From assembly GCA_030373325.1 (NCBI GenBank), contig JAUCZB010000001.1, positions 124,001 to 188,000 of the forward strand: 64,000 nucleotides of DNA, in the 5' to 3' direction. The translations under genes and the position numbers were made by a program. The notes beneath the pieces were generated by a model that ran no database searches, was not told the origin of the DNA, and worked only from the letters and a program-made list of their open reading frames with translations. Origin of the DNA: Cyanobium sp. CZS25K. GTDB taxonomy: Bacteria; Cyanobacteriota; Cyanobacteriia; PCC-6307; Cyanobiaceae. Each line of letters starts with the position of its first letter. Positions within the stretch are counted from its first letter, which is position 1. This document shows, piece after piece, positions 19,134 to 39,526 of this stretch.

Positions 19134-19216
19134 GGGCGCCCGGCCCCTTGCCCGGTGATCCCTGGGCAGGCGGCCGGCGCCCTGTGGGAAACTCGCGGAT
19201 TGATGTGTTCTTCCCC

Positions 19217-21043
19217 ATGCGCAGCCACGGGTGCGGCGATCTGCGCAACGACGCCATCGGCCAGCAGGTCCAGCTGTGCGGCTGGGTCGACCGCCGCCGC
19301 GACCACGGCGGGGTGATCTTCATCGACCTGCGCGACCTCAGCGGCACCGTGCAGATCACGGTGGATCCCGACCTGGCCCCCGCCGCCTTCGCCGTGGCCG
19401 AGCGGCTGCGCAACGAGACCGTGCTGCGGGTGGAGGGCAAGGTGCGGGCCCGGCCGGCCGAGTCCCTCAACGAGCGCCTGGCCACCGGTGCGATCGAGGT
19501 GCTGGCCGCCGGCATCACGGTGCTCAACGAGGTGCGCGGCAACCTGCCCTTCCCGGTGTCGGTGCACGACGAGGAGAACACCCGCGAGGAGCTGCGCCTG
19601 CGCCACCGCTACCTCGACCTGCGCCGCGAGCGCATGGGCCGCAACCTGCGCCTGCGCCACGCCACCGTGAAGGCCGCCCGCGGCTATCTGGAGGGGGAGG
19701 GCTTCATCGAGGTGGAGACCCCGGTGCTCACCCGCTCCACCCCCGAGGGCGCCCGCGACTACCTGGTGCCCTCGCGGGTCTGCGGCGGCGAGTGGTTCGC
19801 CCTGCCCCAGTCGCCCCAGCTGTTCAAGCAGCTGCTGATGGTGGGGGGCATCGAGCGGTACTACCAGGTGGCCCGCTGCTTCCGCGACGAGGACCTGCGG
19901 GCCGACCGCCAGCCGGAGTTCACCCAGCTGGATATGGAGATGAGCTTCATGGACCAGGAGCAGATCCTGGCGCTCAACGAGGGCCTGATCGCCGCCATCT
20001 GGAAGCAGGTGAAGGGCATCGAGCTGCCGCGGCCTTTTCCCCGCCTCACCTGGCACGAGGCCATGGCGCGCTACGGCACCGACCGGCCCGACACCCGCTA
20101 CGGCATGGAGCTCACCGACGTGAGCGACCTGGTGGCCGGCATGGGCTTCAAGGTGTTCTCCGGCGCGGTGGCGGCCGGTGGTTCGGTGAAGTGCATCGCT
20201 GTGGCCGGCGGCAACGAGGCCGTCAGCAACGTGCGCATCAAGCCCGGTGGTGATGTGTTCAGCGAGGCCCAGAAGGCGGGCGCCGGTGGCCTGGCCTTCA
20301 TCCGGGTGCGGGCCGGCGGCGAGATCGACACGATCGGCGCCATCAAGGACAACCTCACGGCCGAGACGAAGGCGGAACTGCTGCAGCGCACCGGCGCCGG
20401 CGAAGGCACCCTGCTGCTGTTCGGCGCCGGCGACACCGCCACCGTCAACAAGGCCCTCGACCGGGTGCGCCAGTACCTGGCCCGCGAACTCGGCCTGGTG
20501 CCGGCCGAGCGGGACAACGACCAGTGGAACTTCCTCTGGGTGGTTGATTTCCCGATGTTCGCGTTCAACGCCGGCGAGAACCGCCTCGAAGCCCTGCACC
20601 ACCCCTTCTGCGCCCCCAACGCCGAGGATCTGGGCAACGACCCCGGCCAGTGGGCGGCCACCCTGCCCACGGCCCGCGCCCAGGCCTACGACCTGGTGCT
20701 CAACGGCCTGGAGCTGGGCGGCGGTTCGCTGCGCATCCACGATGCGGCCCTGCAGCGCCAGGTGCTGCAGACCATCGGCCTGCCCCTGGAGGAGGCCGAG
20801 CGCCAGTTCGGCTTCCTGATGGAGGCCCTGGACATGGGCGCCCCGCCCCACGGCGGCATCGCCTTCGGCATGGACCGGCTGGTGATGCTGCTGGCGGGCG
20901 AGGAGTCGATCCGCGACACGATCGCCTTCCCGAAAACCCAGCAGGCCCGCTGCCTGATGACCCAGGCTCCGGCGGATGTGGCGCCGAAGCAGCTGGAGGA
21001 GCTGCACGTGGCCAGCACCTGGGAGGAGGGGGGGGACGGCTGA
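19217..21043 (+). CDS. aspS: Aspartyl-tRNA synthetase
   Basis: A 608-residue bacterial-type AspRS: N-terminal OB-fold anticodon domain ([20 protein letters not shown]), class II motif 2 ([21 protein letters not shown]), the GAD insertion domain of bacterial enzymes in the middle, and motif 3 ([14 protein letters not shown]). The ATG at 19217 is chosen by similarity of MRSHGCGDL. It is the last gene of the conserved backbone block before the accessory region; in other picocyanobacteria pyrG is expected soon after aspS (recollection). Confidence 0.96.
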
Positions 21044-21058
21044 GCCCGAACCCCCTGC

Positions 21059-22753
21059 ATGCAACGCCTCCTCCAGTTCCCCGCCGCCGAGCCCCGCGCC
21101 CTCTGGATCGCCCTGGTGCGGGAGGCCGGTCTGCGGCAGGTCGGCACGCAGGTGGGGCTCACCCTGATCGTCAGCCTGCTGGATGTGGGAGGTCTGGGGG
21201 TGGCGATCCGGCTGCTGCTCGCCCAACCGGGCGGTATCGCCATGTCGCTGCAGGTCTCGCTGCCGATCCTGTTCGCTCTGGTGGTGGGGCGCTCGGCGCT
21301 CCAGGGCCTGGCCAGCGTGCGGCGGGAACAGCTGCAGAACGGCTTCAGCGATCGGCTGCGGCACGACCTGCTGGCCCTGGTGCTGGCGGCGCCGGCGAAC
21401 CAGGTGCAGACCGTGGGACGGGGGGACCTGCTCGGTCTGCTGGTCAGTGACATCAGCCGCAGCACCCTGGCCCTCGATCAGGGGGTGCGCGCCCTGCAGA
21501 ACCTGATGGCCCTGTGCATCTACGGCCTGGGGGTGCTGGTGGTGGCGCGCAGCGCCGCCTTGCCCCTGGTGCTCGGCCTGGGCGCCGCGGCCACGGCGGC
21601 CCTGCTGCGCCGATCGGGCGCCTGGCAGCTGGGACGCCTCCAGACCCAGCTCAATGGCGCCATCCAGCGCACCGTGGGCGATGGCCTGCACGGCCTCAAG
21701 GCGGTGCGGGCGGCCGGCGCCGAGCCCTGGCTGCTCGACCGCTTCGCCCTGGAGACCATGCAGGTGCGCCAGGTGCTGCAGCGCACCGTGCGTCGGCAGG
21801 CCAGTTACACAGTGCTGCGCGATGGCCTGGCCCTGGCGGTGCTGGGTCTGTGGCTGTGGCTGGTGCGGAGCAGCCTCACCCCGGAGGCGGTGGCCACCAC
21901 CCTGCTGCTGGTGTACCGGGCCGCCAGCTCGCTCGGCACGGTGATCAGCAACCTGCGCTACGGCCTCGGCGCCCTGCCCGGCTACGGGGAGCTCCGCCGG
22001 CTGCGCCAGCGACTGCGGCCTCCCGGGCCCGATCCGCACACCACCACCACCGGCCGGCCGGCGGAGGGCTCCGAGGGGCCGGCTCCTCAGCCGCTGCTGC
22101 GGGTCTGCTGGCACGACCCCCAGCTGACGGTGGACCTGGCGCGGGGGAGGCTGACCGCAGTGGCCGGACCCTCCGGCAGCGGCAAGACCACCCTGCTGGA
22201 TGGATTCGCCGGCCTGCTGGGGGAGGAGAGATCCTGCTGGGAGCTGCATGGGCCGGCGGGCGCCAGCGTCTGGAAGGGCCGCGCCGGTGCCCGGCGCTGG
22301 CGGCAGCTGGTGGCCTACGCGCCCCAGGATCCGGTGCTGTTCGAGGGCAGCCTGCGGGACAACCTGTTGCTGCAGCGCAGCGGCTCCGGTCAGTGGACCG
22401 ACGCTGCCCTGCGGGTGTGGCTGGAGCGGCTGGATCTGGTTCACCTCCTGGCACGCCCGGAGGGTCTCGATGGCCGGCTGCATCTCTCGCTCGACTGTTT
22501 CTCCGGTGGTGAGATCCGCCGGCTGGTGCTGCTGCGCACCTGGCTGATCGATCGACCGGTGGAGGTGCTCGACGAACCCACCGCCTCCCTGGATCCGGGC
22601 AGCGCCACCCTGGTGCGTCAGATCATCCGGGAGCGCTGCCGGGACCATCTGGTGCTGGTGGCCAGCCATGACAGGGAGCTGCTGGCCGCGGCGGACCAGA
22701 CGATCCGACGCAGCCTGTGCGACCGCGACCAGGCCCGGGCCCTGCACGACTAG
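21059..22753 (+). CDS. ABC transporter, fused membrane and ATPase domains (candidate RiPP exporter)
   Basis: A 564-residue half-transporter: residues ~30-310 hydrophobic, six predicted membrane segments, then an ABC ATPase with Walker A GPSGSGKTT (~369-377), a signature-like FSGGE (~480) and Walker B VEVLDEPTASLDP (~500). No C39 peptidase domain is present, matching lasso-type clusters where a separate B2 protein removes the leader. It starts 16 nt after aspS. The next gene is on the opposite strand with a 4-nt tail overlap, so membership of the RiPP locus rests on position. The Q-loop reads YAPQDPVLFEGSLRDN, typical of lipid or peptide exporters. Confidence 0.85.
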   Translation: MQRLLQFPAAEPRALWIALVREAGLRQVGTQVGLTLIVSLLDVGGLGVAIRLLLAQPGGIAMSLQVSLPILFALVVGRSALQGLASVRREQLQNGFSDRLRHDLLALVLAAPANQVQTVGRGDLLGLLVSDISRSTLALDQGVRALQNLMALCIYGLGVLVVARSAALPLVLGLGAAATAALLRRSGAWQLGRLQTQLNGAIQRTVGDGLHGLKAVRAAGAEPWLLDRFALETMQVRQVLQRTVRRQASYTVLRDGLALAVLGLWLWLVRSSLTPEAVATTLLLVYRAASSLGTVISNLRYGLGALPGYGELRRLRQRLRPPGPDPHTTTTGRPAEGSEGPAPQPLLRVCWHDPQLTVDLARGRLTAVAGPSGSGKTTLLDGFAGLLGEERSCWELHGPAGASVWKGRAGARRWRQLVAYAPQDPVLFEGSLRDNLLLQRSGSGQWTDAALRVWLERLDLVHLLARPEGLDGRLHLSLDCFSGGEIRRLVLLRTWLIDRPVEVLDEPTASLDPGSATLVRQIIRERCRDHLVLVASHDRELLAAADQTIRRSLCDRDQARALHD

Positions 22754-23910
22754 GGGCGCAGCCGCTCCTGGACCCGGCCCAGACGGGAGGCGAGGGCAGC
22801 GGCCAGGCTGCGGTCCTCGCCGGAGCAGGGATCGTTGAACGCCGCCGGTGGCAGCGCATAGGCCGCGGCGCTGCGCAGCCAGTCCTGGGGGGAGCGGCTG
22901 AGGGCCACCCGCTGGTACCAGAGATCCCAGGCGCGGTTCAGCCGCCACGGCCCCCGCTGATGCAGGAACAGGGGTTCCCGCTGGGCCTTTCTCGCCACGT
23001 CCACGGCCCAGCGCTGCCGTCGCGACAGCCGGGTGGGATCGCCCGGACCCGGCAGACGAACCTCCAGCAGCGTGACGGCCACGGCCCAGGCCAGGGCCAC
23101 CGCCGGCCGCTTGCACAGATCCTGCTGCAGCGCCTCGCCCCGCAGCCGCATCAGCCGCACCAGATCCACCAGGGCTCGCAGCTCCCCCCAGCGATCATCC
23201 AGCGCGTGGGCGGCCAGATGCTCAAGGGCATGGGCCAGGCTGAGGGTGGGAACGGGCCGGCCCTGGATCGGGATCGCCAGCCGATCGCGCCAGGCGGCCT
23301 CGAATCCCGGCCGATCCCGCCGCACGTTGGTGAGGGCCCAGTGGAGATCCACCACCAGCGGCCCCCGGGCCAGCGGCAGCTCCTTCATCGCCCAGCGGGC
23401 GTAGCGCCAGGCACGGCGCTGAAGCTGGCGTGGCGCATAACCCGGCAGCCGCCGGAAGCCTGCCCCCTCCAGCACCGCCAGGGCCCCGGCCACGGCCTCC
23501 GGATCCACCAGCAGATCCAGGTCGCCGCTGCCCCGGGCGCCCAGGTCGCCGCAGGTCTGGGCCGCCAGCAGGGGCCCCTTGAACACCAGCACCCGCACCC
23601 CCGCCGCCTCGAAGCGGGGGATCAGCTCCCGGGCCAGCCCCGCCAGTGCCAGGCCGCCGAGCCGCTGCAGCCCGGCGCGGCGCCGCAACTCCTCCACCAC
23701 GGCGGCGGGAAACCCGAGGGCGGCGGCGTGGGGGCTGAGGCAGGGCTCGAGCCGGTGGCGGGCGACGGCCGCCAGCAGGGGCCCGGGCTCCAGGGCGGAA
23801 CAATCGGGGGCGGCGGCGGCAGCATCACCCTGCTCAGCCGCCAGCATCCAGCCCAGAACACGGCGCAGAGCCACCAGCTCGGCCGGATCCCGGCCATAGG
23901 GTGTGCCCAT
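22750..23910 (-). CDS. Nucleotidyltransferase-fold protein (PF14907-type), RiPP/polysaccharide-cluster associated
   Basis: A 386-residue protein of the nucleotidyltransferase-fold family that recurs beside lasso-type and HPr-kinase/PqqD gene sets. VLVFKGPLLAAQT (108-119) and GSGDLDLLV (127-135, acidic D130 and D132) form the catalytic signature; VVDLHWALTN follows. A modification role (adenylylation of the peptide or a partner) is plausible but unproven. Its ATG at 23910 overlaps the start of the divergent B2 gene. An internal Met at residue 22 could be the true start and would leave ~60 bp of promoter space. Confidence 0.75.
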   Translation of the reverse strand: MGTPYGRDPAELVALRRVLGWMLAAEQGDAAAAAPDCSALEPGPLLAAVARHRLEPCLSPHAAALGFPAAVVEELRRRAGLQRLGGLALAGLARELIPRFEAAGVRVLVFKGPLLAAQTCGDLGARGSGDLDLLVDPEAVAGALAVLEGAGFRRLPGYAPRQLQRRAWRYARWAMKELPLARGPLVVDLHWALTNVRRDRPGFEAAWRDRLAIPIQGRPVPTLSLAHALEHLAAHALDDRWGELRALVDLVRLMRLRGEALQQDLCKRPAVALAWAVAVTLLEVRLPGPGDPTRLSRRQRWAVDVARKAQREPLFLHQRGPWRLNRAWDLWYQRVALSRSPQDWLRSAAAYALPPAAFNDPCSGEDRSLAAALASRLGRVQERLRP

Positions 23911-24406
23911 GGGAATGCCCTCCGCCCCTGCCCATCATCGCGGGCGCTGGCACCGCTGGAGCCGGTTGAGCGCCCGGCAGCGGCGGCTGACGCTGCAGGC
24001 CTGGCTGCTGCTCCCCGCCGCCGGCGCCGCCGTGCGGATCGTGCCCCTGCGCCGGTTGCTGGCGCTGCTGGAGCTCCGCAGCACCGACGAACCCGGCCCC
24101 CTCCCCAGCCAGCGCACGCCAGCCGCCCCCGGCGACACCCTGAGCCGCGACATCGCCGCGGCGATCACCCGGGCGGCCGCCCAGCCGCCCGGTGGCAGCA
24201 CCTGTCTGGCCCAGGCCCTGGTGGGCACTGTGCTGCTGCACCGGCACGGCCGACCGGCCGAGCTCACCCTGGCGGTGGCGAACCCCGGCGAAGGGCTGGC
24301 GGCCCATGCCTGGCTGGAGAGCGACGGAGCCCCGATCAGCGGCTTTCCCGTGCCTGCCACCTGGCAACCACTGGTACGGTTCCGCGGACGAGTGGAACCA
24401 TCGTGA
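23909..24406 (+). CDS. Lasso peptide biosynthesis B2-type leader peptidase
   Basis: A 165-residue transglutaminase-like Cys protease. The hydrophobic N-terminal segment AWLLLPAAGAAVRIVPLRRLL precedes the catalytic domain; C99 (GGSTCLAQAL) and H133 (AAHAWLES) are the family's Cys-His pair. In lasso pathways B2 cuts the leader delivered by the B1 (PqqD-like) protein. ATG 23909 is preferred because AGGG lies 7 nt upstream; ATG 23915 is also possible. The stop overlaps the cyclase GTG by 4 nt. Confidence 0.87.
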   Translation: MGMPSAPAHHRGRWHRWSRLSARQRRLTLQAWLLLPAAGAAVRIVPLRRLLALLELRSTDEPGPLPSQRTPAAPGDTLSRDIAAAITRAAAQPPGGSTCLAQALVGTVLLHRHGRPAELTLAVANPGEGLAAHAWLESDGAPISGFPVPATWQPLVRFRGRVEPS

Positions 24407-26262
24407 TCGTTCCGATGGCCGGCCTGCTGCGCCGCCGCTCCTCCGCGCCGCTCCCTCCCCTGCCCCTGGAATCAGGCGCTGCGGAGCGGCAGGAACTGAT
24501 CCGGCCGCACCTCCACTGGCGCGGAAGCCTCTCGCACCACGGCCCCTCCGGCACGGTGTGTCTCGGATCAGCCCGGATCGACAACCGCCGCGAGCTGCTG
24601 GAACTGCTGGAGCTGAACGTGGAGGCGTGGGGCGCCGAAACACCCCGGGAGGTGGCCTGCGACGACACCCACCTGATCCACCGGGCCTGGCTGCGCTGGG
24701 GCGAGGCCTGCTGCGAACGGATGTATGGCGACTGGGCCTTCGCGATCTGGAACGAGCAGGAGCGCTCCCTGTTCCTGGCCCGCGATCACATCGGCATCAC
24801 CTCGCTCTACTACGTGCTCACCGACACGCTGCTGGCCTTCGCCACCGAGCAGTCGCTGCTGATCGATCTCCAGCTGCTGCCCTACGCGATCGACGAGCTC
24901 TATGTGGCCCAGGTGCTGGTGGCGTGGCAGGCGTACCACGGTGGGCAGAGCGTGCGACGCGGCATCCATCGGCTGCCGCCCGCCCATCGGCTCACGGTCA
25001 CCCGGGAGCGGCACCGGCTGGAGCAGTACTGGTATCTGGAACGCACGCCACTGCTCCGCCTGCGCGACAGGCGCGACTACGTGGCCGGCTTCCTGGAGGT
25101 GTTCGATGAGGCGGTGCGCTGCCGCCTGCGGCGCGACCGGGGCGGGCTCGTAGGCAGCACCCTGAGCGGGGGCCTCGATTCCGGCTCGATCAGCGCCACC
25201 GCCGCCCGGATGCTGGCGGCCTCAGGGGAGGAGCTGCGGGCCTTCACCTCGGTGCCGATCGCCGACACCACCCCGTTCACCGGCGAGCGCTTCGGCGATG
25301 AGTGGCCCTTCGCTGCCGCCACCGCCGCCGCCGCCGGCATCCGCCACCACGAGCCCGTGGAGGCGGCCGATCTGGCGCCGATGGCGGCGATTCAGGCGCT
25401 CCTGGAGATCCACCGGGAACCCAGCCATGCCGCCGGCAATGCCTTCTGGATGCTCAGCCTCAACCGCCTGGCCCGGCAGGCGGGCTGTTCGGTGCTGCTG
25501 ATCGGCCAGAGCGGCAATGCGGGACTCTCCTGGGCCGGCAGCCCGTGGTCCCAGCCGCTGGGGTACCAGTGGCAGCGGCTGGGACCACGGGAATGGCTGC
25601 GCCAGCGGGCCCTGCGCAGTGCTCCAGCTGCGCTTGTGCAGCGGTGGCGCCGCTGGCGCCTGCGGGAGTTCTGCTTCGACGGCTCCGCCCTGGCGCCCGC
25701 GGCGGCCGAACGGCTGCAGCTGAAGGAGCGGATGCTTGCGGACCCCGATCTTTTCCCCGCCCGCGACGCCCTGCAGGAGCGTTCCTGGCTGATGCCGGGC
25801 CGCTCCTTCGTGGGGGCGCTCCACGCCCAGATGGGTCGGGCCGCCGGCCTGGAGATCCGTGATCCGAGCGCGGATGCCCGGCTGCTGGCCTACACCTGGT
25901 CGGTGCCGGATCAGGTGTTCATCGATCCGGAGCGCGGCGAGGATCGCTGGCTGATCCGGGCCGCCATGCAGGGGCGGCTGCCCGATCGGGTGCGCTGCCA
26001 GCGACGCCTCGGCATCCAGGCGGGGGACCTGGCGGTGCGGCTGCGGCACGACGCCGCCGCGGTGGAAGCGTGCCTCGCCGCGCTGGAACGGTCGGACCAG
26101 GCCCGGGCCTTGGTCGACGTCGGCAAAGTCAGGGAATGCTGGCAGAAGGTTCAGCAATCCGACGACGTTCCATCCCTGCGGGTCAGCGGCTCTATCGTTC
26201 TGAGGGGGCTGATGGCGGTATTATTCATGCGATCATTCGGCCAGGCTCGGCTAATGTCCTGA
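24403..26262 (+). CDS. Asparagine-synthetase-like lasso cyclase (C protein)
   Basis: A 619-residue AsnB homologue. The N-terminal class II amidotransferase-like domain lacks the catalytic Cys after Met, as usual for lasso cyclases; DWAFAIWNEQERSLFLARDH is recognisable near 110-129. The ATP-pyrophosphatase loop SGGLDSGS is at 255-262. Such enzymes adenylate an Asp/Glu side chain of the core peptide so the N-terminal amine can form a macrolactam. The GTG at 24403 overlaps the B2 stop (GTGA); ATG 24415 is the alternative. The precursor gene follows 33 nt downstream. True asparagine synthetase is unlikely because of the missing Cys and the neighbours. Confidence 0.88.
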   Translation: MIVPMAGLLRRRSSAPLPPLPLESGAAERQELIRPHLHWRGSLSHHGPSGTVCLGSARIDNRRELLELLELNVEAWGAETPREVACDDTHLIHRAWLRWGEACCERMYGDWAFAIWNEQERSLFLARDHIGITSLYYVLTDTLLAFATEQSLLIDLQLLPYAIDELYVAQVLVAWQAYHGGQSVRRGIHRLPPAHRLTVTRERHRLEQYWYLERTPLLRLRDRRDYVAGFLEVFDEAVRCRLRRDRGGLVGSTLSGGLDSGSISATAARMLAASGEELRAFTSVPIADTTPFTGERFGDEWPFAAATAAAAGIRHHEPVEAADLAPMAAIQALLEIHREPSHAAGNAFWMLSLNRLARQAGCSVLLIGQSGNAGLSWAGSPWSQPLGYQWQRLGPREWLRQRALRSAPAALVQRWRRWRLREFCFDGSALAPAAAERLQLKERMLADPDLFPARDALQERSWLMPGRSFVGALHAQMGRAAGLEIRDPSADARLLAYTWSVPDQVFIDPERGEDRWLIRAAMQGRLPDRVRCQRRLGIQAGDLAVRLRHDAAAVEACLAALERSDQARALVDVGKVRECWQKVQQSDDVPSLRVSGSIVLRGLMAVLFMRSFGQARLMS

Positions 26263-26295
26263 GACGGCTTGCTTTTGTCTTCCACAGCTCGACTG

Positions 26296-26454
26296 ATGAA
26301 TACTTCCGCCAAGCCCATTCCAGCTGGATCCCCCGCCGTGCATCGGCGCAAGCTCGAATGGCGCCAGCCCTTGGTGAAGAGAATCTCTCTGGAGATCACG
26401 CTTGCGTCTGCTGGAAGCACTGGTGATGGAGTCGGAGGGGGTCCGAATCCTTGA
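26296..26454 (+). CDS. Candidate lasso-type RiPP precursor peptide
   Basis: A 52-residue peptide between the cyclase and kinase genes. The leader holds WRQPL (W22, P25, L26), resembling the YxxPxL element bound by PqqD-like B1 proteins, and T35 at the conserved penultimate leader position. The predicted core is ASAGSTGDGVGGGPNP (37-52). Cleavage after L36 would place A1 and D8 correctly for an 8-membered macrolactam. The tail is short, Gly-rich and lacks bulky plug residues, which is unusual for a threaded lasso, so an unthreaded or otherwise modified product is possible. W22 lies two residues nearer the core than in the best-known systems. Confidence 0.72.
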   Translation: MNTSAKPIPAGSPAVHRRKLEWRQPLVKRISLEITLASAGSTGDGVGGGPNP

Positions 26455-26490
26455 TAGAAAGATTCTTAATCCCGGCCTCAGACCTGAAAG

Positions 26491-27423
26491 TTGATATTCT
26501 CTGCTCCTTCCCAGTTTCTTCCAGCTGATTGCCTCCTACGTACTCACCGCCGCCTCTCCTGCGAGCTGCTCATCCGGGCCCCCTACCCAGGCCACTTTTT
26601 CCTTGATGCCGGCCCTCGGGTCGGCCGTTTTTTTGTGGAGGGGGGACACACCATTCACTTCGAGCCCGCCGCCGACCTGGATTCCGCCCGTGCCGAGTTC
26701 GTGCTCGCCCATCCCGTGCAGGCCGCCCTCCACCGCCATCGGGGCGATCTCGTTCTGCACGCCAACACCCTCCACTGGCGCTACGGATTGATCGCGATCT
26801 CCGGCAGTTCCGGTGCCGGTAAATCCACCACCGCCGCCGGCCTGATTCAGCGGGGCGCCATCCAGATCGCCGACGATCTCACCGTTCTCCGCGCCGGCGA
26901 CCATGGCCAGTTGGTGGTCCGCCATGGTGCTCCCCAGCTCCATCTCACCCGTGTCGCCGCCGAGCGGCTCGGCCTGATCCACGGAGCCCGGCCCAGTCCT
27001 GTCCGCTCCGACAAGGTGGTCGTCCCCCTGGATGGCCCCACCGCCAGCCCGCTCCCCCACGCCGCCGCCGAGCCCGGGGGCTGGCCCGACCCCTCCGGAC
27101 CCGGTCTGCGCGACCTGGTGCTGCTCGAACCGGGCGACGGCCCGGAGGTTGAGCTCAACCGCCTCCGCGGCGCCGACCTGTTCCTCGCCCTGCAGCACGG
27201 CCTCTACGGCCCCTTGAAACCCTGCGACACCCCCGCCAGCTTCCGTCTCCAGGCCCTGCTGGCCCGCAGCGTCAGGGTCTGGTCCCTTAAGCGGCCCCGG
27301 GAGCGGTGGTGCCTTGATGAGGTGCTCGACGCCCTCGAGCAGGCCCTGGCGGCGACCCCCGCACCCCTCGGCGAGGATCCTCCCGCCAGCGCTGAGCCCC
27401 GCCTGCCCCCAGCCCATGGATGA
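26491..27423 (+). CDS. HPr-kinase-like protein of RiPP cluster
   Basis: A 310-residue protein with the HprK/P C-terminal fold: P-loop GSSGAGKST (105-113) followed by QIADDLTVL, the Asp pair that polarises the acceptor. Homologues in lasso clusters phosphorylate the precursor or mature peptide, typically on Ser, and here the core contains S38 and S41 as possible targets. A TGA lies in frame two codons upstream and no ATG is available, so the TTG at 26491 is the likely start. It overlaps the B1 gene by 8 nt. A role in sugar-system HPr regulation is unlikely because no PTS genes are nearby. Confidence 0.8.
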   Translation: MIFSAPSQFLPADCLLRTHRRLSCELLIRAPYPGHFFLDAGPRVGRFFVEGGHTIHFEPAADLDSARAEFVLAHPVQAALHRHRGDLVLHANTLHWRYGLIAISGSSGAGKSTTAAGLIQRGAIQIADDLTVLRAGDHGQLVVRHGAPQLHLTRVAAERLGLIHGARPSPVRSDKVVVPLDGPTASPLPHAAAEPGGWPDPSGPGLRDLVLLEPGDGPEVELNRLRGADLFLALQHGLYGPLKPCDTPASFRLQALLARSVRVWSLKRPRERWCLDEVLDALEQALAATPAPLGEDPPASAEPRLPPAHG

Positions 27424-27706
27424 CCACACCCTGATCTCGCGACGCGCCGACGTGATGGCCACCGACATCGATGACGCCACCGTGATCCTCAGCCTGCAGA
27501 GCAACTGCTACGTCAGCCTTGAGGCCATCGGCCAGCGGATCTGGGCCCTGCTGGAGCCCCCGATCAGCCTGGACTCCCTGCTGGAAGGGCTGCAGGAGGC
27601 GTTTGAGGGCGACCCCGGCGCCATCCGCCGGGATGTGGAACACTTCCTGGGCGAACTCGAAGCGGATGGCCTGGTGACCCTGCAGTCCACGGAACCACCG
27701 GCCTGA
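27416..27706 (+). CDS. PqqD-like RiPP recognition protein (lasso B1)
   Basis: A 96-residue winged-helix RiPP recognition element. The pattern ISRRADVMATDIDDATVIL, then CYVSLEAIGQRIWALLEPP and a final FLGELEADGLVTL is typical of PqqD/B1 proteins, which bind the leader by adding its beta strand and present it to B2 and the cyclase. The ATG at 27416 lies inside the kinase stop region, so the two proteins are probably made together. Confidence 0.88.
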   Translation: MDDHTLISRRADVMATDIDDATVILSLQSNCYVSLEAIGQRIWALLEPPISLDSLLEGLQEAFEGDPGAIRRDVEHFLGELEADGLVTLQSTEPPA

Positions 27707-27729: not shown

Positions 27730-29121
27730 ATGCCTGCGACTCCCCTCGGCCCGCAAAGCCGGCTCGACCGGCTGGCCGGCCAGCTGGGGATCGCCATCGT
27801 GCTGGCCTCGATCCTGGGGGGGCTGTCCTTCCTGCTGCGCCACATCGGCCTGATCGATCCGGCCGGCTACGCCGCAGACCTCGCCCGTTTCTGCCACCCG
27901 CCGCTGCAGACCCTCTGGTTGCCGGCCTCGTGCCGTGCCTGGAGCTGGCTGGACGGGGCGGGCGGTGCCATCACGCGCCTCGACATGGCGAGGCTCTACC
28001 AGATCAGCCCGCCGGAGCTGCTGCTCAAGCTGCTGCGCCACGGCCTGATGGCGGGCCTGGTGCTGATCTCCGGCCTGGTGGTGTGGCGCCATCCTGCTCT
28101 GCGCCTGCCCCCCCGCCAGCTGCTGCTCTGGGTGCCGCTGCAGCTCTCGCTGGGGGTGGCCCTGTGGATCGGCCTGCAACGCGGCCCTTTGCCCGCCGTT
28201 CTGGCCGGCCTGCCTGGCCAGCTCTGGGTGCCCCTGGTGCCGCTCTGTGGCTGGCTGCTGCCGCGCCGGCGGCTGCAGCGGCTGGTGGATGCGGTGGCGG
28301 CGCTGCTGCTGCTGCACCTGCCGGTGCTGGTGCTGGAGGCCATGCGGGGCCTCCCCTTGCGCCATGCCACCCGGCTCTGGGGGGTGCCGCTGCCGGGGCG
28401 CCTGCCGGGCCTGATGGGCCAGCCCAACACCCTGGGGGTGGTTGTGGTGCTCGGCCTTGCGTTCTGCCTGGCCTTTTCCGCTCGGGCCTGGCACCGCCCC
28501 GTGCTGGTGGCGGCGGCGCTGCCCCAGCTGCTGCTGGCCCGCTCCGGTATGGGTCTGCTCGCCCTGGCCCTGCTGCTGCTGTGGCCCAGCCTGCAGCGCC
28601 AGTGGCAACGCCATCCCCGGCGGGCGCTGCTGCTGGCCCCGGTTCTGGCGGCCGCTCTGCTGCTGGTCCTGCCCCACCTGCTGGGACGGCCGGATCTGCT
28701 GGAGTCGATCAGCGGCCGCTGGGGCATGGTGGGTTCCGCCGTGCGCTCGGCCACCCCCTGGCAGCTGCTGCTCGGCCGAGGCCTCGGTAGTGGTGGCGTG
28801 GTGGTGTCGCGCTGGCAGGAGGTGAGCAGTGGCCTGCCGCCCCTGTTCTCCCCCCTGACGCTGCCCAGCGAGGCGGCGGCGGGCCCTGCGCTGTGGCCCA
28901 CCGATTCGTTCTTTCTGCATCAGTTCATCGAGGCCGGCCTGCTGGGGCTGGCGGCCCTGCTGGGGCTGATCGCCGCGGCTCTGCGAAGGGATCGGGCCAG
29001 CCGGCCCTTTCTGCTGCTGGTCCTGCTGTGCGGGCTGAGCCTCAATCTGGGCGAGGTGTTTCCCCTCGGCCTGCTGCTGGCGGTGAGCCTGTGCCATGCC
29101 CTGGCGCCGGGCCATGGCTGA
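27730..29121 (+). CDS. O-antigen ligase / Wzy-like polytopic membrane protein
   Basis: A 463-residue, strongly hydrophobic protein with about twelve membrane segments. Features of the Wzy/WaaL group are GRLPGLMGQPNTLGVVVVLG in the middle and the periplasmic loop LLGRGLGSGG near the C-terminus with DSFFLHQFIEAGLLGL. Such proteins polymerise or ligate undecaprenyl-linked oligosaccharides. It starts 23 nt after the RiPP B1 gene in the same direction, and its end overlaps the beta-helix gene by 8 nt. It is therefore transcriptionally joined to the RiPP genes although its biochemistry looks like surface polysaccharide assembly. Confidence 0.78.
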   Translation: MPATPLGPQSRLDRLAGQLGIAIVLASILGGLSFLLRHIGLIDPAGYAADLARFCHPPLQTLWLPASCRAWSWLDGAGGAITRLDMARLYQISPPELLLKLLRHGLMAGLVLISGLVVWRHPALRLPPRQLLLWVPLQLSLGVALWIGLQRGPLPAVLAGLPGQLWVPLVPLCGWLLPRRRLQRLVDAVAALLLLHLPVLVLEAMRGLPLRHATRLWGVPLPGRLPGLMGQPNTLGVVVVLGLAFCLAFSARAWHRPVLVAAALPQLLLARSGMGLLALALLLLWPSLQRQWQRHPRRALLLAPVLAAALLLVLPHLLGRPDLLESISGRWGMVGSAVRSATPWQLLLGRGLGSGGVVVSRWQEVSSGLPPLFSPLTLPSEAAAGPALWPTDSFFLHQFIEAGLLGLAALLGLIAAALRRDRASRPFLLLVLLCGLSLNLGEVFPLGLLLAVSLCHALAPGHG

Positions 29122-30748
29122 TCCCCGCGCTGGCCACGCTGGCAGGACCATGGCCTGGGTCCTGGCCGCCCTGATGGCCGGAGTGGTGTACGTGCAGCCC
29201 CCAACCACCTGGATGCGCCGTGGGGTGGTGCATGTGGCACCCGATGGTTTCGATGGCTGGCCCGGCGCCGATCGGCGAAGCGCGGTGCGCACGATCCAGC
29301 GCGGCCTCGATCTGGCCCGTGCCGGCGAGTCCGTGCTCGTCTGGCCTGGGGTGTACCGCGAATCGCTGCGGCTGCGCCACGGCGGCCGGGCCGGCCGGCC
29401 CCTGATCCTGCGGGCGGCCGTTCCCGGCCAGGCCGTGATCTCCGGCACCGCCGACCCCAGCGTCAGCCGCCGCTGGAGCTGGCAGTCCGTGGGGCCCCGT
29501 CGCTACCGCACCCGCACCCCCTGGCGGATCGATGGACTGCGGGTCGACGGTGTGATGGCCTACCGGGCCCGACGGGCCAGCGACCTCGACGCCCTTTGCC
29601 GTCGTCCCGGGGCGATGCCGGCCTTCCAGATGCGGGGCGACCACCAGCTCGACATCTGTCTCCCCCAGGGCCGCCCTCCGCAGCAGCGGCGGCTGGAGGT
29701 GAACCGCCCCATGCCGGCGCGCCGCCGCTCCGGGGGCCATCAGGTGGCCCTGCTCTGGGTGGAGGCCCCCCATGTGGAAATCCGTGATCTGGTGTTCGAT
29801 TTCCCCGTGATGGCCGCCATCCAGCTCTGGAACACCCACCACCTGCGCATCAGCGGCAACGCCTTCCATGGTGCCGATGTGGCGATCGACGGCAGCGCCG
29901 GTCTGCGCCAGCCCCACCAGCTCCTGATCGATCACAATGCCAGCGACTGCCGTCCCCTCTACCAGTGGCGCCAACGGGGCTGGCTGAGCTGGGCTGAGGT
30001 CTATCCCTACTCCAACTGCAGCCTCACCTGGATCCAGGGGCTTGACATCACCCTGCGCCACAACCTGATCAGCGAAGCCGGTGATGGCATCAAGCTCTCG
30101 CCCCTGGGGGGCCGCAACCGCATCGATGCCAATGTGATCGCCTTCACCACCGATGACGGCATCGAATTTGATGGTGCGGCCTCCCATCTGGAGGTGAGCC
30201 ACAATCTCGTGGTGGGCACCTGGGCCAGCCTTGGCATCAGCCCGGTGAGCACCGGCCCGCTGCGCATTCACCACAATCTCTTCCTGCAGCAGCGCCAGAA
30301 CTCCCTGGTCGGCAACGGCGTCTGGCTCAAGCTGATGGGCGGTCCGATCCAGGGGGTGACGCTGGACCACAATCTTTTCCTTGGCCTGCGGCTGGCCTGG
30401 AGCGTGCCCGATTCCCCCGTCAGCGACTTCAGCCTGAAGAACAATCTGCTGCTCCTGGTGGATCCGGCCGAAGCCGGCTTCGATGCCCGCCCCCAGGTCA
30501 CCTGGCAGGACAACCGGGAGGTGGGTCTGGCCTGGGCGGCCTGGCCGTTGCCGGAGCAAGGCCCACCGGCCTTGCTGGCGCTGCTGGAGTCCGCAGGTGG
30601 GGACGGCCCATCCCCATCCCCATCCCTGCCACTGGAGCTGCCGCTGCCGATCCTGCGGCCCGGTCCCGCCTGGTATCGCCTCGAACAGGGTGCGTCCGGC
30701 CGCCAGCTGAAGGCCCTGCTGGATGCCGGCTGGATCCGCAGCCGATGA
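29114..30748 (+). CDS. Exported right-handed parallel beta-helix protein
   Basis: A 544-residue protein with an N-terminal hydrophobic segment (AWVLAALMAGVVYV) and VVHVAPDGFDGWPG, AVRTIQRGLDLARAGESVLV and PGVYRESL, the opening common to NosD/pectate-lyase-like beta helices. Later rungs show repeated hydrophobic/Asn patterns such as HLRISGNAFHG, DITLRHNLISEAGDGIKL, NRIDANVIAFTTDDGIEF and LRIHHNLFL. These folds cut or epimerise acidic polysaccharides. With the Wzy-like neighbour (8-nt overlap) this suggests a polysaccharide lyase or epimerase; no catalytic residues can be assigned. Confidence 0.8.
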   Translation: MADPRAGHAGRTMAWVLAALMAGVVYVQPPTTWMRRGVVHVAPDGFDGWPGADRRSAVRTIQRGLDLARAGESVLVWPGVYRESLRLRHGGRAGRPLILRAAVPGQAVISGTADPSVSRRWSWQSVGPRRYRTRTPWRIDGLRVDGVMAYRARRASDLDALCRRPGAMPAFQMRGDHQLDICLPQGRPPQQRRLEVNRPMPARRRSGGHQVALLWVEAPHVEIRDLVFDFPVMAAIQLWNTHHLRISGNAFHGADVAIDGSAGLRQPHQLLIDHNASDCRPLYQWRQRGWLSWAEVYPYSNCSLTWIQGLDITLRHNLISEAGDGIKLSPLGGRNRIDANVIAFTTDDGIEFDGAASHLEVSHNLVVGTWASLGISPVSTGPLRIHHNLFLQQRQNSLVGNGVWLKLMGGPIQGVTLDHNLFLGLRLAWSVPDSPVSDFSLKNNLLLLVDPAEAGFDARPQVTWQDNREVGLAWAAWPLPEQGPPALLALLESAGGDGPSPSPSLPLELPLPILRPGPAWYRLEQGASGRQLKALLDAGWIRSR

Positions 30749-31206
30749 GCTTGCCATCCGCCTGGCTCCGCCTCGGTGCTGGCCTGGCCGGCCTGCCCGC
30801 CGCTCTGGCCACCGCCCTGCTGGCGGGCTGGCTGCTGCAGCCCTGGAGTGTGGACCGACCGATCGCCCCCTCGGAGCTGCTGGACTGGGGCTGGCGCTGG
30901 GGACTGATGCTGAGCACCCTGCTCTGGGGAGCGGCCTGCCTGGGCCATCGCCGGCCGGCCTCCCCCCAACGGGTGCTGGGCGGCGTGGGGCAGGCGGTGG
31001 GAGTGCTGCTGGGCCTCACCGTACTGGGAGTGCTGGCGGCTCTGCTGGCGCTGCAGCTCGGCTGGGTCGGTCACGACTGGAGGGTGCCCGCTCGCCGGGG
31101 CCTGATGCTGCGCATGGCCACGGAGACAGGACTGCAACAGCTGGGCCTGCCGGCGGCCTTCAGCGCCGCCGCCCTGCTTTGGAGATCCAGGCGAGGTTCG
31201 GCCTGA
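30745..31206 (+). CDS. Small hydrophobic membrane protein of unknown function
   Basis: A 153-residue protein overlapping the beta-helix stop by 4 nt (ATGA). Three or four hydrophobic segments are visible (approximately residues 10-32, 50-68, 83-108 and 128-145), with a basic end (RSRRGSA). No family recognised. The tight coupling suggests it serves the same polysaccharide step as the two genes before it. The 174 nt that follow are non-coding apart from short frames. Confidence 0.65.
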   Translation: MSLPSAWLRLGAGLAGLPAALATALLAGWLLQPWSVDRPIAPSELLDWGWRWGLMLSTLLWGAACLGHRRPASPQRVLGGVGQAVGVLLGLTVLGVLAALLALQLGWVGHDWRVPARRGLMLRMATETGLQQLGLPAAFSAAALLWRSRRGSA

Positions 31207-31380
31207 CCGCGTCCCGTTGCGGCCCTGCACCATCCGTTCTGCTCCTCTCCAGCCCCCAGCCCTGGGCCCGAGCCCTGTCCTACGAACGGGTGCTCAGCCT
31301 CGGGGCAGGACAGCTGCCGGGATGGCGATGGGGCACCGAGGTGAGCGCGGTACGCAGGCCGTGATCAGCAGAGGCAGGAC

Positions 31381-32184
31381 TCAGGTCGTGGTGGTGACTG
31401 TTTTGCCGGTGTCATTGGTGGGTTTTCTGCGCTTGCGTCTGGAGCCCAGAGGCGCGATTCCTGCTCGCCTGGGAGGTGGCAGCACGCCGGCCAGATAGGC
31501 GAAGGTGATGGCATAGCCCGCGGCGGAAATGACGATGCGGAAGGTTTCCTTCACCAACTCATCCGGCCTCCTGCCGGCCTGGGCCTCGATCTGCTGCTTG
31601 AGTTGATTGGAGGCCTGCTCCGCCCGTGCCAGCAGGATGTTGCGCAAGGTCCCGATGGGTGTGCTCAGTTCCGCCGGCGAGAGACCGGCGTTTGGGCCGA
31701 AGAGAAACCGCACCTTGTTCTGGAGCTCCTCATGGGTGTTGGCGCTGGTGATGGCCTCGCGCAATTGCGTGAGTCTCTCGGAGGCCTGGCTGATCTGTTT
31801 CTCCTGGACAAGGGTCACGGACGTGTGGAAGCTCCAGGCCGCGAAGAGCTGAAGGGGAATCAGCAGCAGGAACCCCAGGGATGCGGCCACGATCCAGGGG
31901 CGCCACGCGTTCCAGCGGTCCCGCAGCCTTGGGCGGATGGGATCGAACCCGAGGGCCAGGACCAGCAACAGGACACCCATCAGCGCCATGAAGGCGTTGT
32001 TGATCAGCGCAGCACTCACGCCCAGCTGCCAGGAGAGATCGAGCAGCTTCGGCGGCGCTGCGGCGATGACCATGGCGGCTAGGAACATCACCAGCAAGAT
32101 CAAGGAAAGCGCAGCCAGCAGCTGAGCCACCGCCCCTCTGTTCCATTCTTGCGCCGGAAGAGGCGGAAAAGCGAGGCGTACCAA
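31381..32184 (-). CDS. HpsJ-like membrane protein
   Basis: A 267-residue protein with four membrane segments around residues 20-43, 60-78, 96-118 and 210-230, separated by a long alpha-helical, Gln/Glu-rich periplasmic region (SQASERLTQLREAITSAN ... SNQLKQQIEAQAGRRPDEL) and a basic Thr-rich tail. This layout resembles HpsJ-type proteins associated with polysaccharide secretion in cyanobacteria. Assignment is by overall pattern and is moderate. It is convergent with the membrane gene upstream. Confidence 0.55.
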   Translation of the reverse strand: MVRLAFPPLPAQEWNRGAVAQLLAALSLILLVMFLAAMVIAAAPPKLLDLSWQLGVSAALINNAFMALMGVLLLVLALGFDPIRPRLRDRWNAWRPWIVAASLGFLLLIPLQLFAAWSFHTSVTLVQEKQISQASERLTQLREAITSANTHEELQNKVRFLFGPNAGLSPAELSTPIGTLRNILLARAEQASNQLKQQIEAQAGRRPDELVKETFRIVISAAGYAITFAYLAGVLPPPRRAGIAPLGSRRKRRKPTNDTGKTVTTTT

Positions 32185-32489
32185 CGGACGATCAGCGACA
32201 GATGAAAGTTACATGGAAGTCAGGGAGTGGGGAGGTGCACAGCCCGATCGGAAACAACCCGTGTTCCCGTCTCCTTCGGATGGCCTGTTCTTGCCACGGC
32301 CGTCACTGCTCCGCCCCCCCCACGCGCCATCGGCATCCCGGAGGCCCAGCGCAACCAGATCGCTGCCGGCCCTGGCCGCGTGCTGGCTGGAACGTCACCG
32401 GGCTGTCGCCGCTCCAGATCCACGGGCTTGATCACTGGAGGCGTCGACCGGTGTCTGCCCCGCCCCACGGCGGCCCAGCAGACGACGTA
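32185..32489. other. 305-nt gap containing a decayed dps fragment
   Basis: Between the HpsJ-like gene start and the present stop of the frameshifted ATP-grasp gene. It holds the dps remnant (32296-32403) and the stretch (32395-32489) that would encode the original C-terminus of the ATP-grasp protein in another frame. No other gene was seen. Confidence 0.7.
32296..32403 (+). pseudogene. Decayed 5' fragment of dps
   Basis: Translating this stretch gives AVTAPPPPRAIGIPEAQRNQ followed by IAAGPGRVLAG, clearly the N-terminus of the intact Dps at 37148 ([18 protein letters not shown] then [11 protein letters not shown]). The initiator ATG is ACG at 32296. After GTGCTGGC about 40 nt are missing relative to the intact gene before the match resumes at TGGAACGTCACCGG, then homology stops. 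Both copies have the same orientation and bracket the ACP operon. Confidence 0.88.
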
Positions 32490-33638
32490 TCAACCGCCCA
32501 AGGCGATGGTTGCGCAGGCGGGAACGCAGAGTGCCTCGCAGTCTCTGCCACTCCCAGGCCTCGATCGCCTCGTCCCGCCGCAGACGCAGATCCCAGGTCC
32601 CCGGGCGCGCCAGGATCCAGGGCCGGGCCACGGTCCAGGAGAGGGTCTGCAGCGCGTACTCCGGTGCGCGGGGGAAGAGATGGATCTCTCCCGGCCCTGA
32701 ACGGGCAGCCCCTGGGGCTGCAGGGGCCTGGGCGGAGGCGTTGCCGCGGCCATCAGGGCCCCCCAGTCCAGCCCCAGGCTGGGGCCGAAGGCATGCCAGG
32801 CATTGGGACGGGGATCAGCCTCAAACAACAGGGGCGCCGACCCGTCTTCCGGCATCCGAAAACCGCAGTTGAACAAGCCATGCAGACCCGCCACCCGACC
32901 GAGGGCCTGCAAGGCGGCCGTCACACCGGCCGGCACGATGGCCACGAAGCGGCGGCTCAGGTTTGGACCGAAGGGACCTGTTGCGTGCAACGGCCGCGAC
33001 GCCTGAAGCCCCAGCAGCTCGCCATCGCCGAACAACGCCTCGACGGCAAAGTCCTCCCCGGCCACCCAGGCCTGCAGCAGGAGGGGGTACCAGGCCAACG
33101 GCGGCGGGTCCGCCAGCACCGCGGCCGCGCCTGGAACGCAGCGCACCTGCTGTCCCCCTGAGCCGTGATCGGCTTTGAGCATCAGGGGCCCATGGCAGCT
33201 CGCGAGGGCAGCGGCCAGCTGGCTCGGGGAGTCCACCACCTGGGTCCCTGGGGTTGGGATGCCATGCCGCGCAAGCAGCTGGGCCAGCCCTGCCTTCGAG
33301 CCCACCATGGCCAGCCCCTGGGGTCGGCGGATCGGCAGCAGGGCGAGCCGGCGCTTCAGCGGCAGCTCAGCCCTGGCCAGGGCATGGGGCAAGGCGTCGT
33401 TGGCATGGATGACCCAGTCCGCCGCACCGTCGACGGGACAGGTCTCCGCCAGAAGGGCGTTGGTCCATCCCTCCAGCGAAAATGGGCCCGCCAGCGGCAC
33501 AAAGTGATCGATGAAGCGGCTGTGGCGGAAGGGACTGGCCTCACTCCCCAGCGCCACCAGTTCGAGACGATGGCCCGCCAGCACCTCCGGCAGCCGCGCT
33601 GTGACCTCGCTGCAACCGATCAGAACGACGCGACGCAT
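32490..33638 (-). CDS. ATP-grasp enzyme, C-terminus altered by an apparent frameshift
   Basis: As read, 382 residues. VVLIGCSEVTARLPEVLAG forms the N-terminal nucleotide-like fold; LLARHGIPTPGTQVVDS, LMLKADHGSGGQQVRCV and LLFEADPRPNAW are ATP-grasp elements that join an activated carboxylate to an amine or thiol. After GRE (near 32691) the sequence turns into Pro/Arg/Ser nonsense. Shifting frame restores IHLFPRAPEYALQTLSW and a basic helical tail ending at 32395. The shift lies in GAGAGA (32690-32685); removing one GA repairs it. Start overlaps the hydrolase-like gene by 19 nt. May be inactive, phase-variable or a sequence error. Confidence 0.78.
   Translation of the reverse strand: MRRVVLIGCSEVTARLPEVLAGHRLELVALGSEASPFRHSRFIDHFVPLAGPFSLEGWTNALLAETCPVDGAADWVIHANDALPHALARAELPLKRRLALLPIRRPQGLAMVGSKAGLAQLLARHGIPTPGTQVVDSPSQLAAALASCHGPLMLKADHGSGGQQVRCVPGAAAVLADPPPLAWYPLLLQAWVAGEDFAVEALFGDGELLGLQASRPLHATGPFGPNLSRRFVAIVPAGVTAALQALGRVAGLHGLFNCGFRMPEDGSAPLLFEADPRPNAWHAFGPSLGLDWGALMAAATPPPRPLQPQGLPVQGRERSISSPAHRSTRCRPSPGPWPGPGSWRARGPGICVCGGTRRSRPGSGRDCEALCVPACATIALGG
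32685..32690 (-). other. GAGAGA dinucleotide run at the ATP-grasp frameshift
   Basis: Three GA units on the coding strand mark the point where the conserved-looking frame changes. Two GA units would give GRE followed directly by the restored frame. The site is compatible with replication slippage or with a read error. Confidence 0.65.
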
Positions 33639-34750
33639 CCCGCCTCACCATCCGGGGTCAAGGGGCGCCAGCGGGCACGGCGGGCCAGAAGCCGCCCGCG
33701 ATGCTGCCTCTGTTCGTCCGGGAACAGCAGATCCGCCACCACGGGAACCAGCGCATAGCCGCGGCGTTGCAGCTCCACCAGCAGGTTGTGGTCACGGCAG
33801 CCGCGGTAGGCCCGGGTCTGGAGGCTGCCGAGCGGCAGATCCCAGCGGGCCACCGTCGCCCGGGCCAGGGCCGTTCCCCTGATGTCGGAAGCGCAGCCGG
33901 CGGAACAGCAGAGACGCAGATCAGGCCCAGCCGCTCGCGGTGGCGGCAGGGCGGATCGCAGCCCCTGCATCCAGGCGCGGTCCAAGGTCACCGCACCCTG
34001 AGGCGGCCAGCCTCCCAGGGACACCCCCCGATCCGCACCCAGGGCCACCGCCGCCACCGCCGCGGCAAACCCGCCGCCGCTGTATCCGATGGTCACCACC
34101 TGGTCATAGAGCTCCAGAGGAACCAGAGCAGGGAGAGCCTCCAGCAGGCGGGCCATCGCACTGGAAGCGCCATCCCGGCCAAAAAAGGTTTGCTGGTGAG
34201 GCCGCTCCCGCAGCACCAGCACCACGTCGGTGGCGAACGGACCCATCAGCTGCAGAAAGCAGGGCGCGATCATGGCGACGGCATTGGCGTTGGACCCGAA
34301 CGCCACCACCAACTTCCGCGCCGGTCCTGCGGCGACCCGTGCACGGCGGTACCAGTGCATCCGAACCGCTCCCAGATCCCGTACCGCCACCGCTTCGTCG
34401 TAGGGGGCGGGGGCAACGAGCAGGCCGGGGGCGTCCGTACGGGTTTCGCACAACCAGGACGCCAGAGGCTGGGACGGCTCGCCCGAGGCCAGCCAGGCCA
34501 ACAGGAGACCCTGCAGCTCCAGGGGCCGCATCACCCGGTCGTGCCGCATCCGCAGCTGATTCGACCGGTTGGTCGACTGGCCTCGAAAGCGCAGATACAA
34601 GGCCTGGGATTCCTGGGACAGCCCCGCCACCAGCTCCGGCCTGCGGCGCACCAGCCACCGTGACTGCTGCAGATGCCAACGCACCCTGAAGCGCTCACGA
34701 TGGAACCGGAACCAGGCCATGGCCTGGTGAAAGGGGCGAACCCCGATCAC
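33620..34750 (-). CDS. Alpha/beta-hydrolase-like protein of ACP operon
   Basis: A 376-residue protein. A basic N-terminal region precedes a hydrolase-like core with KLVVAFGSNANAVAM, VVLVLRERPHQQTFFGRDG and the nucleophile elbow YDQVVTIGYSGGGFAAAVAA (S224 in G-x-S-x-G). A His-containing C-terminal part (YRGCRDHNLLVELQRRG) may supply the base. It could release or transfer an acyl group from the ACP, as thioesterases do (inference). The GTG at 34750 overlaps the ligase stop by 4 nt; ATG 34720 is an alternative. The C-terminus overlaps the ATP-grasp gene. Confidence 0.62.
   Translation of the reverse strand: MIGVRPFHQAMAWFRFHRERFRVRWHLQQSRWLVRRRPELVAGLSQESQALYLRFRGQSTNRSNQLRMRHDRVMRPLELQGLLLAWLASGEPSQPLASWLCETRTDAPGLLVAPAPYDEAVAVRDLGAVRMHWYRRARVAAGPARKLVVAFGSNANAVAMIAPCFLQLMGPFATDVVLVLRERPHQQTFFGRDGASSAMARLLEALPALVPLELYDQVVTIGYSGGGFAAAVAAVALGADRGVSLGGWPPQGAVTLDRAWMQGLRSALPPPRAAGPDLRLCCSAGCASDIRGTALARATVARWDLPLGSLQTRAYRGCRDHNLLVELQRRGYALVPVVADLLFPDEQRQHRGRLLARRARWRPLTPDGEAGCVASF

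Positions 34751-37804: not shown

Positions 37805-39526
<1,722 letters not shown>

Follow-up and report, generated by a model that had tools for sequence, protein, structure and literature searches.

Lasso peptide kinases are described as acting on a C-terminal Ser. In paeninodin and pseudomycoidin the kinase phosphorylates this residue, which is described as extremely conserved wherever a cluster encodes a kinase of this type (PMC9266682). Paeninodin is produced in Paenibacillus dendritiformis from a cluster (PadeA, K, C, B1, B2 and D) that combines split B1 and B2 proteins, an AsnB-like C, an ABC exporter and PadeK, an HprK-like kinase containing a His-Lys-Asp-Asp motif, with a WxxP-type leader carrying Thr at its penultimate position, Thr(-2). 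Paeninodin-like leaders almost always have Trp at -15, the W/YxxP motif being the part bound by B1 proteins (PMC13381572), and the His-Lys-Asp-Asp motif is necessary in the kinase ThcoK (PMC9266682). Pseudomycoidin, from the psm cluster of Bacillus pseudomycoides, is both phosphorylated and glycosylated, and lasso clusters with a kinase and an NTP-transferase are a known type (PMC9266682); its kinase PsmK and its NTP_transf_5-type protein PsmN act on the C-terminal Ser. The linear polyphosphorylated peptides (LPP) of Paenibacillus are likewise encoded with an RRE, an HprK-like kinase, an NTP transferase and an ABC exporter, but their clusters have an SpI-type peptidase and neither C nor B2, and their kinase modifies an internal core Ser, as LppK does at Ser3 of the core of LppA (PMC13381572). 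Cyanobacteria have been described as underexplored with respect to lasso peptides (PMC7533575), and the literature searched contained no description of a Cyanobium lasso peptide.

The window, which denotes here the whole 64,000-nucleotide stretch of Cyanobium sp. CZS25K DNA that was analyzed, belongs to a Cyanobium-like genome of 3.1 Mb in 34 contigs, whose closest named relatives are Cyanobium sp. Cruz-8D1 and FGCU6. Between aspS (19148-21043) and pyrG (37829-39526) it carries a cluster that, together with its precursor, is very probably of the lasso type. The same gene set occupies the same aspS-pyrG site in FGCU6, and the corresponding stretch of Cruz-8D1 likewise begins with aspS. The genes follow one another in the order ABC exporter, NTP_transf_5 protein, B2, C, a 52-codon ORF, HprK-like kinase and PqqD-type B1, most of them overlapping or separated by a few tens of bases, and all but the NTP_transf_5 gene lie on the forward strand.

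The CydC/MsbA-like ABC exporter (21059-22753; PF00005) corresponds to the lasso D gene, and its homologues adjoin other lasso clusters of the family. The nucleotidyltransferase-like NTP_transf_5 protein of the PsmN type (22750-23910, reverse strand; PF14907, 4e-38) has a conserved GSGDLD-type motif and homologues at loci L046, L048, L079 and L044. B2, a transglutaminase-like leader peptidase (23903-24406; PF13471, 1e-19; NF033537 lasso_biosyn_B2, 76.5 bits with a cutoff of 33), contains the Cys and His of the catalytic triad, with STCL and HAWLE conserved. The AsnB-like macrolactam synthetase C (24415-26262, with a start at either 24415 or 24400; PF00733, 2e-35) has an intact SGGLDS, and among NCBIfam models it scores best with NF033535, for cyanobacterial lasso cyclases, reaching 249 bits where the cutoff is 525. 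The kinase K (26491-27423, with an uncertain TTG start) is assigned by PF07475 (28.6 bits, slightly under cutoff), by invariant columns, by its position in the kinase tree and by a structural model (pLDDT 77) that a PDB fold search places in the HprK/PEPCK fold. B1, the predicted leader binder (27416-27706; PF05402, 5e-13; NF033536, 3e-14), is a PqqD-type RRE that resembles the solved lasso B1 protein TbiB1 (PDB 5v1u, E 5e-9). The locus thus unites the class-level features of lasso clusters, with B2, a B1 RRE and an AsnB-like C together, a W/YxxP leader with Thr(-2), and an acidic residue at core positions 7-9. Every component listed in the earlier note (nucleotidyltransferase, B2, AsnB-like cyclase, kinase and PqqD-like B1) is present by Pfam or NCBIfam matches. 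Its assignment of a lasso cluster to 22750-27706 stands, but the limits do not, since the exporter begins at 21059 and the cluster is often accompanied by another two genes (27730-30748).

The 52-residue ORF at 26296-26454, forward strand (MNTSAKPIPAGSPAVHRRKLEWRQPLVKRISLEITL / ASAGSTGDGVGGGPNP, predicted ring A1-D8), lies between C and the kinase gene, at distances of 33 and 36 bp respectively, and was proposed in the earlier note as an easily missed precursor. Easily missed it is: none of the NCBIfam precursor models, including the paeninodin model NF033524, matches it even at E 10, and a relative in genome G012 gives only a weak match to NF033524 (15.9 bits of 27). We built a leave-clade-out HMM solely from the precursors of other clades and searched it against 590 small ORFs of the window; it matches 26269-26454 at E 4.7e-5, the next best ORF scoring E 1.6. 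The precursor is conserved in Cruz-8D1 and FGCU6, the ATG at 26296 being kept in the latter. Over the 26 codons from KLEW to D8, 20 differ between the window and FGCU6 (12 silent, 8 replacement), and 17 of the 29 base differences fall at third positions (binomial p 0.0045). It is therefore highly improbable that this ORF is something else and that the real precursor went unnoticed; the lack of any matching curated precursor family speaks for that view, but the profile match is the only one in the window and in the genome, and the ATG, leader and D8 are conserved with a third-position bias.

A matching short gene adjoins C in the window, Cruz-8D1, FGCU6, genomes G176, G236, G762 and G733 and a proteobacterial MAG, and in a Wallbacteria MAG a short precursor gene lies on the opposite strand, some 350 bases away from C. 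The window precursor and that of FGCU6 keep W(-15), P(-12), T(-2) and D8, spaced as in lasso leaders of the paeninodin type; in the relatives, too, Trp, Pro and Thr occupy -15, -12 and -2, with a Pro-to-Thr spacing of 10 and, in one relative, one extra residue between Pro and Thr. Thr(-2), the penultimate leader Thr noted before, occurs in every homologous precursor, and an acidic residue (Asp or Glu) stands at core position 8 or 9 in all of them (D8 in the window, Cruz-8D1, FGCU6, G176, G762 and G733; D9 in G236), which supports the A1-D8 ring suggested earlier. A different conserved precursor gene, or a lack of conservation at Thr(-2) and Asp8, had been named as grounds for abandoning the proposal, and the homologous loci do not refute it. 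A search of the genome to E 10 for a second precursor returned only noise, although at 88.5% completeness a Ser-ending second copy could escape it.

A more telling fact, overlooked in the earlier note, is that the C-terminal Ser, the usual kinase target, is lost in the window clade: the cores of its three genomes end in PNP, PNPP and PPTP. Most WxxP-type relatives have cores ending in Ser (G176, G236, G762, G163, G012, G168, G496 and the proteobacterial MAG), and in G733 the contig breaks off at the Ser of the core. The Wallbacteria MAG, with a Thr-ending core, is an exception, as are some additional KLEW copies of G168, G756 and G042. We also asked whether a frameshift could give the tail a terminal Ser, since a second frame of the window ends in RPES, but rejected this because FGCU6 offers no counterpart and its TGA stop is aligned with that of the window. 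The window locus therefore shares with paeninodin all the components given above, and with pseudomycoidin a kinase and an NTP_transf_5 protein in a lasso cluster, but its precursor ends in Asn-Pro and so does not have the terminal Ser on which PadeK, PsmK and PsmN act. Relative to the paeninodin-like phosphorylated peptides, the kinase motif is present and the terminal Ser is absent, which places the locus outside that group; paeninodin also comes from a different phylum. The presence of C and B2 separates the locus from LPP clusters, and the nine window proteins scanned gave no signal-peptidase match.

A kinase without a terminal Ser is not unique to the window clade, as the extra KLEW copies in other picocyanobacteria and the clusters of filamentous cyanobacteria demonstrate. 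In filamentous and other cyanobacteria a kinase likewise accompanies most of the B1-B2-C clusters found, whose leaders are of the form YxxPxLxxxG with a Pro-to-Thr spacing of 12, and the YxxP-type precursors beside kinases in filamentous cyanobacteria mostly end in R, N, F, P, K, D or T rather than in Ser. Since most such precursors have no Ser end, the substrate of the kinase is a general question in cyanobacteria. HprK-like kinases with YxxP-type precursors mostly lacking a Ser end were recorded at loci L105, L110, L111, L113, L117, L118, L125, L133, L043 and L103.

The window kinase itself appears functional. His90, Lys111, Asp128 and Asp129 are invariant in the 12 aligned kinases, and comparison with the FGCU6 kinase (dN 0.174, dS 0.485), with dN/dS between 0.22 and 0.36, indicates purifying selection. 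These observations, and the tight placement of the gene between A and B1, make it unlikely that the kinase no longer modifies the window peptide, acting instead on a sugar or another peptide or handling the precursor in a chaperone-like manner, with an unphosphorylated product; such a change of role would nonetheless fit the missing Ser in all three genomes, the rebuilt C-terminal half of the kinase, which is divergent and without the FRPRFVRGLG stretch of its relatives, and the stem branch of 2.6 changes per column. Because the usual C-terminal Ser is missing, an internal hydroxyl is the more likely kinase target, and such a target is possible because LppK, a relative by family, modifies Ser3 of its core. 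Ser5 is the best candidate, being present in the window, Cruz-8D1, FGCU6, G236, G762 and G733 and absent from G176. It may, however, be conserved for ring folding, since sisters that retain the C-terminal Ser keep Ser5 too.

The closest clusters outside the window clade are those of the sister Cyanobium genomes G176, G236, G762 and G733 (loci L046, L048, L079 and L101), which have the same WxxP leader, Thr(-2), D8 or D9 and short Gly-rich core, together with ABC, NTP_transf_5, membrane-protein and beta-helix genes, and cyclases 51-53% identical to that of the window. They differ in their Ser-ending cores (that of G733 cut by the contig end), in the gene order K-B1-B2-C-A and in kinases only about 29% identical. 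In the cyclase tree the window clade is sister to these genomes (SH-aLRT 100), but the kinase tree separates it from them, and therefore the window kinase has either been replaced or changed very fast. One possible account, though not the one we consider most probable, is a mosaic cluster in which the kinase, perhaps with B1 and B2, came from another lasso lineage without Ser-ending precursors, the precursor tail changing with it; this would be compatible with the functional readings. Placing the window kinase in one clade with those of G176, G236 and G762 has a p-AU of 0.018, against the well-supported cyclase grouping, and the order B2-C-A-K-B1 of the window differs from that of the sisters. 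However, uniting every picocyanobacterial kinase in a single clade is not rejected (p 0.37), nor is the constraint on the B2 tree, which shows a similar, weaker pattern (p 0.18), and with such long branches fast divergence in place explains the data equally well. Kinase transfer from another lineage is thus suggestive only. Plasmid records searched for kinase and cyclase homologues contained none. Separately, the sister cyclases at L046, L048 and L101 lack the SGGxD ATP-binding pattern, which the window cyclase retains as SGGLDS.

The sequence itself shows the genes, the precursor with its conserved leader and D8, the absence of a terminal Ser and an intact kinase motif; from these we infer the ring, the cleavage site, the modification site and the export route. 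B1 would bind the W(-15)xxP(-12) leader and B2 would cleave after TL, where Thr is at -2; C would then link the Ala1 amine to the Asp8 side chain, giving an eight-residue ring with a GVGGGPNP tail, and the ABC protein would export the peptide. The kinase would remain active and most likely phosphorylate an internal precursor hydroxyl, with Ser5 the best candidate, and the NTP_transf_5 protein may add a sugar at the phosphorylated internal residue. As a whole, this reading of a paeninodin/pseudomycoidin-type lasso cluster with an A1-D8 ring and a kinase shifted to an internal residue is our preferred one, held tentatively and at a little short of an even chance. With its active-looking kinase and no terminal Ser, beside sisters that keep the Ser, the window clade makes the kinase substrate rule directly testable and could reveal a new modification site, and it adds the picocyanobacteria to the sources of lasso peptides.

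The GVGGGPNP tail has no aromatic, long or bulky side chain, and was described in the earlier note as plug-free and unlike known lasso peptides. That contrast is not borne out among its nearest kin: the sister Cyanobium precursors also have short Gly/Ser tails, of 5-7 residues, so the plug-free tail is a family trait. Given these tails, threading appears doubtful for the whole sister group. There is a real but lesser possibility that maturation yields a branched-cyclic peptide without threading, an outcome that the earlier note allowed for alongside phosphorylation or nucleotidylation of the product. C would close the A1-D8 ring, and the small tail would either fail to thread or slip out again, under either reading of the kinase. 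The small tail, set against the bulky residues that typically hold class II lassos (PMC13352647), and the short sister tails are consistent with this, whereas the B2/C machinery is lasso-type and conserved, the FGCU6 tail includes Leu-Arg-Ile, and a phosphate or sugar could act as a plug. A more specific version of the preferred internal-target reading, in which the kinase has exchanged the C-terminal Ser for a ring residue (Ser5 or Thr6) as its target, the mature ring carries a phosphate and perhaps a sugar, and this group may alone hold the plug-free tail or replace threading, we consider improbable as a complete statement.

Downstream of B1 lie two associated genes on the forward strand. 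The first (27730-29121) encodes a hydrophobic membrane protein with multiple helices, which resembles an O-antigen ligase in size and topology alone and for which Pfam and NCBIfam gave no match and the AF2 model (pLDDT 50) is too poor for identification by structure; it adjoins the sister lasso clusters. The second (29096-30748) encodes a right-handed beta-helix protein (PF13229, 2e-5, under cutoff) and travels with the first. Within the genus, the seven genomes that encode a close cyclase all have both genes, and five further genomes have the membrane gene without a window-type cyclase. In G150, whose precursor is the same as that of FGCU6, the two genes are on other contigs, and in FGCU6 they are likewise elsewhere. 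We therefore rejected them as core lasso genes on the basis of their location in FGCU6 and their occurrence without a window-type cyclase; they are associated, not core. As a pair (27730-30748, and on contigs of G751, G126, G168 and G150) they travel with lasso clusters and also occur alone. The beta-helix gene is followed by about 4 kb (30748-34747) that contain no ORF of typical codon composition before the next clear gene is reached.

The comparison also brought out a second picocyanobacterial lasso-type family (loci L044, L080, L083 and L084, in G012, G672, G168 and G163), with KLEW(V/I/Q)TP leaders and mostly Ser-ending precursors. Its members have a kinase, an NTP_transf_5 protein and a sulfotransferase (PF00685, 4e-19), with several precursor copies per genome, and the G163 member has a very divergent cyclase.
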